DNA from: Komagataeibacter oboediens
GTDB lineage: Bacteria; Pseudomonadota; Alphaproteobacteria; Acetobacterales; Acetobacteraceae
Assembly: GCF_003207815.1 (NCBI RefSeq)
Contig: NZ_NKTX01000019.1
Span: 1 to 49,702, forward strand
Direction of reading: 5' to 3'
DNA length: 49,702 bases
Positions 41,580 through 44,183 of this stretch are shown piece by piece; position 1 is the first letter of the stretch, and each line of letters starts with the position of its first letter. The position numbers and the translations under genes were made by a program. The notes under the pieces were generated by a model. It was not told where the DNA came from, ran no database searches, and was given only the letters and a program-made list of their open reading frames with translations.

Positions 41580-41756
41580 TTATTTTTCCGCGAACGGGTC
41601 GAAATCGCCGTCGTTTTCACGCACGCTCCACCACCCTTTGTTCCACTGTTCATAGGCGGGCAGGGTTTCGTCAAAGGGGTTTTCGATCAGCGGTTCGCCC
41701 CTGGTGGCGGCGGCCTTGCCCTGTTCAAAGGCATCGGGCGGGGTCTGGTCGGTCAT
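41580..41756 (-). CDS. Small RMF-like protein
   Basis: The 58-residue protein starts at 41756 (MTDQTPPDAFEQGKAAATRG), with AGGA nine bases upstream; a longer frame to 41831 has no site. The pattern A-F-x2-G-x2-A-x3-G...NPFDE...QWNKGWW recalls ribosome modulation factor and its relatives, which are about 55 residues, basic, and bind the 30S subunit to form hibernating 100S dimers. This one is acidic rather than basic, which argues for a related but different role. It stands alone between the ClC gene and the oxygenase gene. The call is tentative. Confidence 0.6.
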   Translation of the reverse strand: MTDQTPPDAFEQGKAAATRGEPLIENPFDETLPAYEQWNKGWWSVRENDGDFDPFAEK

Positions 41757-41870
41757 CGGTGGTTTTCCTGACTTGTCTCTGTCTGGTGATGCGTGACGCT
41801 TACACCATGTCTTAAGCGCGGGCAGCCCCACGCGGCGGAAGGGGGTAATGCGTCAGGCGCAGGTGTTCGG

Positions 41871-42725
41871 TCAGGCCGTCGTGCCATATGTCATCCCGCG
41901 GTCACGCAGCCACCGGCGGTAGGCGACCGACATGCGGTCCGCCATGGTGGGGATTTCCGCCCCCGCTGAAAGGGGCAGCCTGCGGGGGCGCTGGTTTTCC
42001 AGTATGATGCGGTCCTGCAGGAAGATGGTCTGCTGGAATTCGACCAGGTCAGCCTGCGGCGCGTCATCATCAAGCAGGAACATGACCGGGTGCGCGCGCG
42101 AACATTCCTGCGTCATGGGCTGCACGAACAGGGCAATGACGTCAAAGCGTTCGGGCTGCGCGGGACAGGTCTTGTACAGCAGCGTCACGAATGGCCCCGC
42201 CACCCGGTACAGGTATTCGGTATTGATCCCGTCGGTGGCGGACAGGGCGGCCTGTGGCTGGAAGAAATGGCAGTCCGTGGCCCAGACCTCGTTGCCGCCT
42301 TCACGCAGTTCAATGGTGTAGCGCGCGACTTCGGTATGTGGCTCGGCACCCAGGATGTTGGTGTGGACGAAGGGAAAATGCGCCATGTCGAGAAAGTTCT
42401 CGACAATGCGCGGGGCCGATGTCCGCACCGTGAACACCCCGCAATCCACCAGCCTGCGGTCGGGTTCCAGTGCTTCGTCAATGGCGGGAATGTCGCCTGC
42501 GGGCGTGCCGGGACAGGTCCACAGGCAGCCGTGGCGGGCGCGTACGGGCAGGGTACGCCTGTCCGCCACGTCGCAGGCGAAGGGATTGCCCTGCGCATCC
42601 TGACCGAAGGTGATGTGGCGATCGAGCAGCATGGTATCGGTCGGGGTGGTGCGCAGCTGTGACAGGGGACTGATCACATACCAGTCGGACAGGATGGTTT
42701 CATCGACGGCGGTGATCTGTGTCAT
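41871..42725 (-). CDS. Ring-hydroxylating oxygenase alpha-subunit-like protein without Rieske cluster ligands
   Basis: The start at 42725 (MTQITAVDETILSDWYVISP) has AGGA eight bases upstream. The 284-residue protein aligns by eye with VanA-type Rieske oxygenase alpha subunits: DWYVISPLSQL at the N terminus, the mononuclear-iron site ENFLDMAHFPFVHTNILG (Asn110, Asp113, His116, His121), and QDRIILENQRPRRLPLSAGA at the C terminus. But where the CPHRG and C-x2-H cluster loops should be, it jumps from PFACDVADRRTLPV to RARHGCLWTCPG, a loss of about 40 residues. It can hold the catalytic iron but not the [2Fe-2S] centre. A protein with exactly those ligands is encoded divergently 178 bp away. The substrate is unknown. 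Confidence 0.75.
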   Translation of the reverse strand: MTQITAVDETILSDWYVISPLSQLRTTPTDTMLLDRHITFGQDAQGNPFACDVADRRTLPVRARHGCLWTCPGTPAGDIPAIDEALEPDRRLVDCGVFTVRTSAPRIVENFLDMAHFPFVHTNILGAEPHTEVARYTIELREGGNEVWATDCHFFQPQAALSATDGINTEYLYRVAGPFVTLLYKTCPAQPERFDVIALFVQPMTQECSRAHPVMFLLDDDAPQADLVEFQQTIFLQDRIILENQRPRRLPLSAGAEIPTMADRMSVAYRRWLRDRGMTYGTTA

Positions 42726-42903
42726 TGCCCGGTTCCTGTTTGCAGTATGCCATCGCATGGGGTGCGATTGCCGTGACGGTGGCGTAATGTTAGCGCTCAG
42801 CATAATGGTGCGCCATAGTGGCGTGCAAAGGAAGATACGCTGTCAGCCCATGCGGTGACAGTGTGCGGTCATCCGGACGGGCTGGAAAGGGAGCGGGGAA
42901 CGT

Positions 42904-43566
42904 ATGGAAAGATGGCAGCCGGTCAGTGTCCTGTCCAACATACGCCGTGGCGAGGTCGCGGGCGTGCGGATAGGGGGTCATGAAGTCGTGCTGTGGCGCG
43001 AGGACGCGCAGGCTGCAACCCTGCATGCGTGGGAGGACCGCTGCCCCCATCGCGGCATGCGGCTGAGCTTTGGCTTCGTGCGTGATGACGCACTGGGCTG
43101 CCTGTACCATGGCTGGCAGTTCGGTGGTGCCGCGCGGTGCAGGCTGATCCCCGCCCACCCACGGGTGCGCGTGCCCGCTTCGATCCATGTGCGGACCTAT
43201 ACCGTGCGCGAACATGCGGGTCTGGCATGGGTCAGCATGGAAGGGGCGGAGGACTTTCCCCACCAGCAGGCGGACTGGCCGGAGCACGCGCAGCCGGTGC
43301 GCACCGTGCATGTGCATGCGCCGGTAGGGCAGGTGCGCCATGCGGTTGGCCTTGCGCCCGACGGAGGTATGGCGTGGCATGGACCGGTCGGTCTTGCGGT
43401 GCATGAACCGGTCGCGGGACAGGCCATGCTGCATGTGGTGCGGGCGGCGGACGGGCCGTCTGCCCTGACGCTGTCGCACTGGGCCGAACGGCTGCGTGAT
43501 GCGGTGGAAGGCGGGGCGCAGACGGCCCCCGTCATGGCGGAACTGGCGGCGGGAGCGACGGCATGA
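42904..43566 (+). CDS. Rieske [2Fe-2S] protein without a catalytic domain
   Basis: The 220-residue protein has a Rieske domain at about residues 5-110: WQPVSVLSNIRRGEVAGVRI, then EDRCPHRGMRLSFGF with Cys47 and His49, and LGCLYHGWQFGG with Cys66 and His69. The fold closes with HVRTYTVREHAGLAWVSMEG. This is the N-terminal half of a VanA-type oxygenase. The C-terminal 100 residues do not have the iron site N..D..H....H; they are a His-rich, unassigned part. It could pass electrons to the cluster-less oxygenase encoded divergently. Its stop overlaps the GST gene (ATGA). Confidence 0.85.
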   Translation: MERWQPVSVLSNIRRGEVAGVRIGGHEVVLWREDAQAATLHAWEDRCPHRGMRLSFGFVRDDALGCLYHGWQFGGAARCRLIPAHPRVRVPASIHVRTYTVREHAGLAWVSMEGAEDFPHQQADWPEHAQPVRTVHVHAPVGQVRHAVGLAPDGGMAWHGPVGLAVHEPVAGQAMLHVVRAADGPSALTLSHWAERLRDAVEGGAQTAPVMAELAAGATA

Positions 43567-44183
43567 CCTCTGGACTGACCCTGTATGACTGGACGCCGGA
43601 TGTGCGCTGTTACGCGGTGCGCCTTGGCCTGTCGCTCATGGGTGTTGCGTATGATACGCAGGCGGCGGATATGGATCTGCCCACGTTCCAGCGCCCCGTG
43701 GGGCTGCGGCCGGGCGAACGGCCGCCAGTTCTTCTGGTGGCGGGTGATGTGCGTATGACCCGTCCGGGCACCATCATGCAGTTTGCCGCCCGCCAGCCAG
43801 CGGTTGCGCGGGCATGGCTGGACCCGGCGCATGAATGGGCGATCCTGGACTGGCTCGATTTCGGGACGATGGCGCTTGATGCACTGGCGGCGGCGCGGGA
43901 TCTGGCCTTTGGCACCACGCTGCCGGTCCTGCCGCCCATGGGGGCGCTGGTGGCCGCCCTGCGCCGGATGGAAGACCACATGAGTGCGCGGGCAATGGCG
44001 GGCCATGAGTGGTTCGCCGCCCCCGCCGCCAGCATTGCCGATGTGCTGCCATTCGTGGTGTTTGCGCTGTCGGCAGACCTCGAAGTGGAACGCGACACCT
44101 GTCCCGCGCTGCGGCGCTGGGCGCATCGCATGCGCGGGCTGCCGGGTTTTGTGGTCATGCCCGGGGTGCCGGACTATGCCTGA
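43563..44183 (+). CDS. Glutathione S-transferase-like protein
   Basis: The 206-residue protein has a thioredoxin-fold N terminus (LTLYDWTPDVRCYAVRLGLS, then RPPVLLVAGDVRMTRPGTIM with a cis-Pro) and an all-helical C-terminal domain (LDPAHEWAILDWLDFGTMAL, ASIADVLPFVVFALSADLEV with the N-capping Asp, CPALRRWAHRMRGLPGF). This is the GST superfamily. The catalytic Ser/Tyr/Cys position holds Pro-Asp-Val-Arg-Cys, so Cys at residue 16 may be the active residue. Translational coupling to the Rieske gene suggests a shared pathway, for example conjugation or isomerisation of the oxygenase product; that is inferred. Confidence 0.78.
   Translation: MTSGLTLYDWTPDVRCYAVRLGLSLMGVAYDTQAADMDLPTFQRPVGLRPGERPPVLLVAGDVRMTRPGTIMQFAARQPAVARAWLDPAHEWAILDWLDFGTMALDALAAARDLAFGTTLPVLPPMGALVAALRRMEDHMSARAMAGHEWFAAPAASIADVLPFVVFALSADLEVERDTCPALRRWAHRMRGLPGFVVMPGVPDYA

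Follow-up and report, generated by a model that had tools for sequence, protein, structure and literature searches.

A split Rieske oxygenase beside a GST-like gene in Komagataeibacter oboediens

Organization of the locus

The window, the whole stretch of 49,702 nucleotides that was analysed (contig NZ_NKTX01000019.1), contains three adjoining genes, referred to here as A, B and G. Gene A is transcribed divergently from B, and G follows B with an overlap of 4 bp. The main features are:

41871..42725, minus strand: gene A, an NdmC-like oxygenase alpha subunit without the Rieske part, 284 residues from the MTQ start
42363..42398, minus strand: N110-D113-H116-H121 of A, two histidine ligands and the bridging aspartate, invariant in 41/41 sequences
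42012..42014, minus strand: D238 of A (FLQD), candidate third iron ligand, invariant in 41/41 sequences
42726..42903: 178-bp region between the divergent start codons of A and B
42904..43566, plus strand: gene B, a free-standing Rieske subunit with a predicted vestigial catalytic domain, 220 residues
43042..43110, plus strand: cluster ligands C47-H49 ... C66-H69 of B, invariant in 55/55 sequences
43285..43521, plus strand: residues 128–206 of B, predicted remnant of a helix-grip (catalytic) domain, eroded and lacking iron ligands
43563..44183, plus strand: gene G, a putative GST-like subunit (NdmE-like), 206 residues

The split oxygenase at this locus is real, and the coordinates, reading frames and named residues of the first-pass annotation were all correct on re-checking. 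The longest open reading frame in the frame of A begins at 42803; the methionine of MTQ is preferred as the start because the Komagataeibacter homologues align from there. The protein is 93–94% identical to its counterparts in Komagataeibacter sp. FXV3 and K. swingsii. The trio is flanked by genes for a CLC channel, a porin-like protein and a FUSC protein. An 83-residue open reading frame downstream of A (41580–41831) shows a resemblance to ribosome modulation factor that stays below the threshold (0.0056).

An oxygenase subunit without a Rieske cluster

The protein encoded by A matches the Pfam family VanA_C (2.8e-20), and the Pfam search returned no match to a Rieske model within it. Residues N110, D113, H116, H121 and D238 are retained throughout an alignment of 41 A sequences (the window and, after thinning at 85% identity, 40 of the 80 loci), and the cluster-binding motif C.H...C..H occurs in none of the 41. 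D238 aligns with an aspartate of SxtT/GxtA and NdmA in the region of the third iron ligand. We take this position to be a ligand, as in the oxygenase family, which would make D238 a candidate to complete the iron site of A.

In a profile alignment of A against B, ~49 residues of the cluster-binding part have no counterpart in A, and the predicted model of A matches 274 of the 327 residues of SxtT; we therefore put the loss at ~50 residues. The first-pass annotation had recognized that A keeps the iron site and lacks the cluster ligands, and had placed the loss at about 40 residues, which is too low.

All three genes appear to be under selection. Comparison of the window with three Komagataeibacter relatives by the NG86 method (nine pairwise comparisons over A, B and G) gave dN/dS ratios of 0.09–0.19 for A, 0.24–0.31 for B and 0.22–0.28 for G. 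A pseudogene or a sequencing break is ruled out by these ratios, together with the presence of the identical split in 37 genomes.

A Rieske subunit with a vestigial catalytic domain

The product of B matches the Pfam Rieske family (1e-20). Its ligands C47, H49, C66 and H69 are invariant in an alignment of 55 B sequences (the window and the 54 that remained of the 78 measured after thinning at 80% and removal of two over-long sequences), none of which contains the D..H(4-6)H iron motif. B is 198–245 residues long in 76 of the 78 cases measured. In the predicted model, residues 128–206 form a second domain, read from its DSSP assignment as an eroded helix-grip fold, and 206 residues of the model can be superposed on complete alpha subunits (SxtT residues 7–287). 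We rejected a plain Rieske ferredoxin as the identity of B on account of this match to whole alpha subunits; a ferredoxin of this kind is a single Rieske domain of ~105 residues, and B has 220 residues with a modelled second domain. The Cys-His/Cys-His ligands noted at first pass are thus present in B, but the iron domain is not simply absent, as had been stated; a shrunken, ligand-free version of it is predicted.

At the sequence level, the C-terminal part of B matches the corresponding region of NdmD-type fusions (profile E 9.6e-9). Its direct comparison with oxygenases is not significant, with E-values of 0.0025 against Rieske-less A and 0.33 against full-length oxygenases (controls: reversed 0.17, GST 0.053). 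The matching part of the NdmD-type fusions scores 1.6e-5 against A (controls: reversed 0.93, GST 0.83) and 0.72 against full-length oxygenases. The homology of the C-terminal part of B to the oxygenase domain is predicted mainly from the model.

The GST-like protein

No Pfam family was matched by G as a single sequence; its single-sequence match in the PDB is the GST 3m8n (9.5e-6), and a profile of 22 G homologues matches the GST 3m3m at 5.7e-35. The glutathione site in the N-terminal domain of GSTs carries an Asp/Glu-Ser pair. This pair is absent from G of the window and of its Komagataeibacter relatives, where the window reads TRPGTIM as against RDSQAIL and TESSAIL in the P. putida-plasmid and Rhizobium homologues, respectively; the kombucha copies of G read RDAQAIL. 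It had been proposed from the first reading that the GST may act on the product of the oxygenase, a suggestion that we find unsupported. We consider it very improbable that G functions as a glutathione transferase with either the product or formaldehyde as its substrate. Its homology to GSTs is clear, but the Asp/Glu-Ser pair is missing in the window and its Komagataeibacter relatives, and NdmE, the GST-like protein of the NdmCDE oxygenase, is reported to have a non-catalytic, structural role (PMC10380055, PMC8055839).

Co-occurrence of the three genes

Among 397 Acetobacteraceae genomes, A (at least 240 bits) is found in 37, one of which (G327) has a broken A frame. In all 37, B lies on the same contig within 6.7 kb of A, and G is near A (9 + 20 + 8 loci). 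The nearby B scores at least 99 bits in 35 of the 37; the weaker matches are those of G178 (75 bits) and of the copy on contig C364 of G019 (85 bits). No B of at least 99 bits was found among the 397 genomes without an adjacent A or A fragment, and the B matches below 99 bits are mostly the Rieske parts of full-length oxygenases. Neither half therefore occurs as a rule without the other in these genomes, and the view of A and B as a complementary pair, put forward at first pass, holds.

A wider set gave the same picture. In the best 80 of 568 confirmed loci (on named contigs), a selection that favours close relatives and in which neighbours were accepted at a loose limit of 55 bits, B is present in 80/80 and G in 78/80; at the two G-less loci (L097 and L104) the sequence ends at B. 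A fused or adjacent reductase was found in 0 of these 80. Relative to A, the nearest B is divergent in 59 loci, on the same strand in 20 and convergent in one.

A sample of 398 Pseudomonadota genomes, searched with the A profile at a cut-off of 1e-30, yielded 24 matches: the genome of the window itself, 14 split A, seven unsplit near relatives and two other oxygenases. In the 14 split-A genomes, B is free in seven, free with a separate reductase gene in one, and joined to a reductase in six. Four of the latter have an open frame of 583–588 residues, L201 has one of 401 residues, and L196 was assigned by spacing only. G is present in all 14. The free-standing trio spans acetic-acid bacteria, rhizobia and relatives of Rhodobacter.

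In a Gluconobacter-like genome (L187, G378:C1:33000-38000), fragments of A and B lie beside intact-looking transporter and deaminase genes. No match to G was detected at this locus, where the trio seems to have decayed together.

The lack of partnership between A and B, with B a general Rieske electron carrier and A served by another donor, would be in keeping with their location on opposite strands here and their separation by up to 6.7 kb in some genera. However, A and B co-occur one-to-one, B exceeds the Rieske ferredoxins in length and is modelled with an alpha-subunit-like fold, and the two genes decayed jointly in G378. We give this explanation very little weight and regard A and B as partners.

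Phylogeny and unsplit relatives

In an unrooted tree of A, from which three long rows were left out, one branch (100/99) separates 40 Rieske-less rows from 13 full-length ones; with the three long rows included, a single branch again divides the unrooted tree, into 43 Rieske-less and five full-length rows. Similarly, 39 B rows are set apart from 13 others by one branch (100/94) in an unrooted tree of B that leaves out one B without an intact motif. The window A lies on one branch (100/99) with the C subunits of NdmD-containing clusters (L054, L056, L057, L058, L195 and L198–L201), which serve as proxies for NdmC of Pseudomonas putida CBB5. The oxygenase on the P. putida plasmid p420352-strA is 44.8% identical to A. 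This plasmid also encodes a 585-residue Rieske-reductase fusion, the end of which matches the solved NdmD structure (6icm_D, 3e-33), with a GST gene adjoining; its trio is used here as a stand-in for NdmCDE of CBB5. Judged from sequence, the pattern of ligands and losses, the co-occurrence, the homology to NdmCDE-type trios and the selection on the genes are established.

The nearest full-length relatives (L164–L170, 319–337 residues) are 37–45% identical to A over residues 57–282 or parts of that range, and 38–46% identical to the Rieske part of B. Together with L208 and L209, they come from a single proteobacterial family and are close, unsplit relatives of both A and B. PnrA-like transport genes stand beside the unsplit relatives in both of the two inspected (of seven); L208 is accompanied by PnrA-like proteins and a gene of the adenosine deaminase family. 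No GST was found near the unsplit relatives at the two wide loci inspected.

Given the 206-residue match between the model of B and entire alpha subunits, A and B have the appearance of a reciprocally eroded pair of alpha subunits. We tentatively propose, with doubt slightly outweighing belief, that one alpha-subunit gene was duplicated and reciprocally eroded into an obligate heteromer, with a recruited GST replacing the intra-chain links. The free trio would then be the general form, serving N-methylpurine salvage, and NdmCDE a reductase-fused caffeine offshoot. The reductase-fused forms make up two groups in the unrooted A tree; in the unrooted B tree, the fused rows and L048 form one group (100/98) with weak placement (82/38). 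The order of split and fusion is thus not set by the trees.

Genomic context and possible substrate

In the same best 80 of 568 loci, a PnrA-like binding protein is encoded near the trio in 62; such transporters probably carry purines. An amidohydrolase was detected by tblastn in 56 of the 80, a count that includes weak, probably unrelated matches. The amidohydrolase of the Gluconobacter-type locus L036 passes the NCBIfam cut-off for 8-oxoguanine deaminase (551.7 vs 532), and the others checked (L051 and L035) fall below it. The P. putida trio is adjoined by hpxO and a nucleobase symporter. No purine gene was found near the trio in the window itself.

Within Komagataeibacter, the trio is present in 11 of 19 genomes and stands apart from purine-type genes. 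A tie between the trio and 8-oxoguanine deaminase within the genus was rejected, as the deaminase gene is present in 19/19 genomes, with the trio or without it. A second PnrA-like protein (~58% identical to the query) tracks the trio, being present in 10 of the 11 genomes with the trio and in none of the 8 without it (Fisher p 1.2e-4, for an association noticed after the fact and uncorrected for kinship). In the genome of the window, an 8-oxoguanine-deaminase-like gene lies in two frames and looks broken (G000:C155:38140-40820), and the second PnrA-like gene adjoins it.

A candidate reductase in the same genome (G000:C231:11271-12134) shares 39% identity with the separate K. nataicola enzyme. 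Of the 11 trio genomes, nine encode a strong VanB-type reductase; in the other two, G060 and G303, the best E-value is about 1e-13, so the VanB-type protein is only a putative electron donor. We rejected a tie between the trio and a dedicated VanB reductase, since these two genomes have no strong one and genomes without the trio carry VanB too.

Plasmid pKNA08 of K. nataicola DS12, a kombucha strain, carries an NdmA-like oxygenase (4.4e-167 to NdmA) and an NdmB-like oxygenase (3.1e-129 to NdmB, 5e-123 to NdmA) in a cluster (L055, 6908–18973) that also encodes a separate reductase as well as Rieske-less oxygenases, free Rieske proteins and GSTs, two of each. This cluster resembles a caffeine pathway in which NdmD is divided in two, and a tea-culture origin would fit. 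One of its free Rieske proteins (L055:8787-9320) lacks one cluster cysteine (GVYHGW vs C..HGW), as if it no longer bound a cluster. A tandem arrangement is seen in L057, L195, L196 and L198, where two Rieske-less oxygenase genes are followed by one Rieske-reductase fusion and one GST.

Our best guess from homology and gene neighbours is that the trio is a purine N-demethylase. It could be an acetic-acid-bacterial caffeine enzyme, that is, a 7-methylxanthine N7-demethylase and thus the functional orthologue of NdmCDE: all three subunits are homologous to those of NdmCDE-type trios, and K. nataicola DS12 has NdmA- and NdmB-like oxygenases beside two such trios. But the window trio, 46% and 34% identical to the copies on the kombucha plasmid, is on another branch than these and has no NdmA/B-like genes, most relatives adjoin PnrA-type transporters rather than caffeine genes, and the comparison was made through proxies for NdmC of CBB5. 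We regard this assignment as rather unlikely; it was set aside as the sole reading and kept as a rival.

The gene neighbours of Gluconobacter- and Asaia-type loci (an 8-oxoguanine-deaminase-type amidohydrolase, a CDA-fold deaminase and a PnrA-like transporter) suggest instead that the substrate is a guanine-type base with an N-methyl group, for example the 7-methylguanine that arises in RNA turnover, or the 8-oxo form of such a base; demethylation would then precede deamination. Xanthine-dehydrogenase-like and aldehyde-dehydrogenase genes in L035, L129, L135 and L137 point the same way. This substrate is possible but doubtful: the argument comes from neighbours only, the xanthine-dehydrogenase-like protein scores below the pucD cut-off (647 vs 783.65), the small deaminase is below the TadA cut-off with no closer name, and a search of open-licence PMC found no paper making such a link.

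Proposed mechanism and implications

Rieske oxygenases pass electrons between the chains of a ring. We think it likely that A, B and G are three subunits of one NdmCDE-like oxygenase, a purine N-demethylase in which B feeds A and G holds both. The folds of A and B are those of predicted models; we infer the electron path from B to A, the scaffold role of G, a reductase acting in trans and the substrate. An NAD(P)H reductase encoded elsewhere would reduce the cluster of B, which may adjoin A as neighbouring alpha subunits do in an ordinary oxygenase ring. Electrons leaving B would pass the bridging Asp113 on their way to the iron of A, and A would hydroxylate an N-methyl group, probably on a purine base, with release of formaldehyde. 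G may serve as a scaffold for holding or folding the other two subunits, in the 3:3:3 stoichiometry reported for NdmCDE (PMC10380055). In evolutionary terms, an alpha gene would have been duplicated, with loss of the cluster subdomain from one copy and of the iron site from the other; the fusion of B to a reductase (NdmD) would be one arrangement that arose later or in parallel.

Because the two centres sit on separate proteins, each could be changed, labelled or reduced alone, making inter-subunit electron transfer and its gating directly testable. If reciprocal erosion is true, the trio would be a clean case of mutually dependent duplicate subunits with a GST as scaffold. The proposal explains a frequent annotation puzzle in many alphaproteobacteria, where a 'dioxygenase subunit alpha', a 'Rieske protein' and a 'GST' appear in a row, and points to a route of purine N-demethylation beyond caffeine. 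The smaller free-standing form may also be an easier structural target than NdmCDE.

Comparison with known systems

Ordinary alpha subunits (of the SxtT/GxtA, NdmA, NdmB, DdmC and VanA type) carry both centres on each chain, whereas A and B have one each, together with a degenerate half. For NdmA/NdmB, the distance between cluster and iron is given as 12.1 Å between neighbouring subunits and 44.7 Å within one (PMC10380055). HpxD-type oxygenases resemble A in being Rieske oxygenases of the purine pathway, with ~29% identity to it, but are single chains with both centres and have no GST. Compared with the Rieske ferredoxins NdoA, BphA3 and CarAc, B has ~90 more residues, which fold as a helix-grip remnant in the model; it shows identities of 31–89% only within its own group and to the N-termini of NdmD-type proteins.

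The closest parallel, NdmC/NdmD/NdmE of P. putida CBB5, has been reported as a Rieske oxygenase from which the Rieske domain was split off: NdmC has no Rieske cluster, the reductase NdmD carries it instead, and both solubility and activity depend on the GST-like NdmE (PMC4408171). Its structure is given as unsolved in PMC13237722. Both systems combine a Rieske-less oxygenase, a separate Rieske protein and a GST-like protein, and their homology is seen through close relatives of NdmCDE. They differ in that NdmD joins the Rieske domain and an FMN/NADH/ferredoxin reductase in one chain, whereas B of the window is free; B ends at 43566, and no match to a reductase was found at the window locus (L031). 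The ndmCDE genes also lie in one operon, whereas A diverges from B in the window.

The two-protein oxygenase was initially taken to be a new arrangement, but NdmCDE had already been published as a split oxygenase with a GST-like subunit. Clusters like ndmCDE are reported in 18 organisms, mainly rhizobia (PMC4408171), so others may already have come across the free-standing form among them; our literature search of open-licence PMC found no description of that form. The split arrangement is thus partly known, while the free-standing version and its apparent mode of origin look new.
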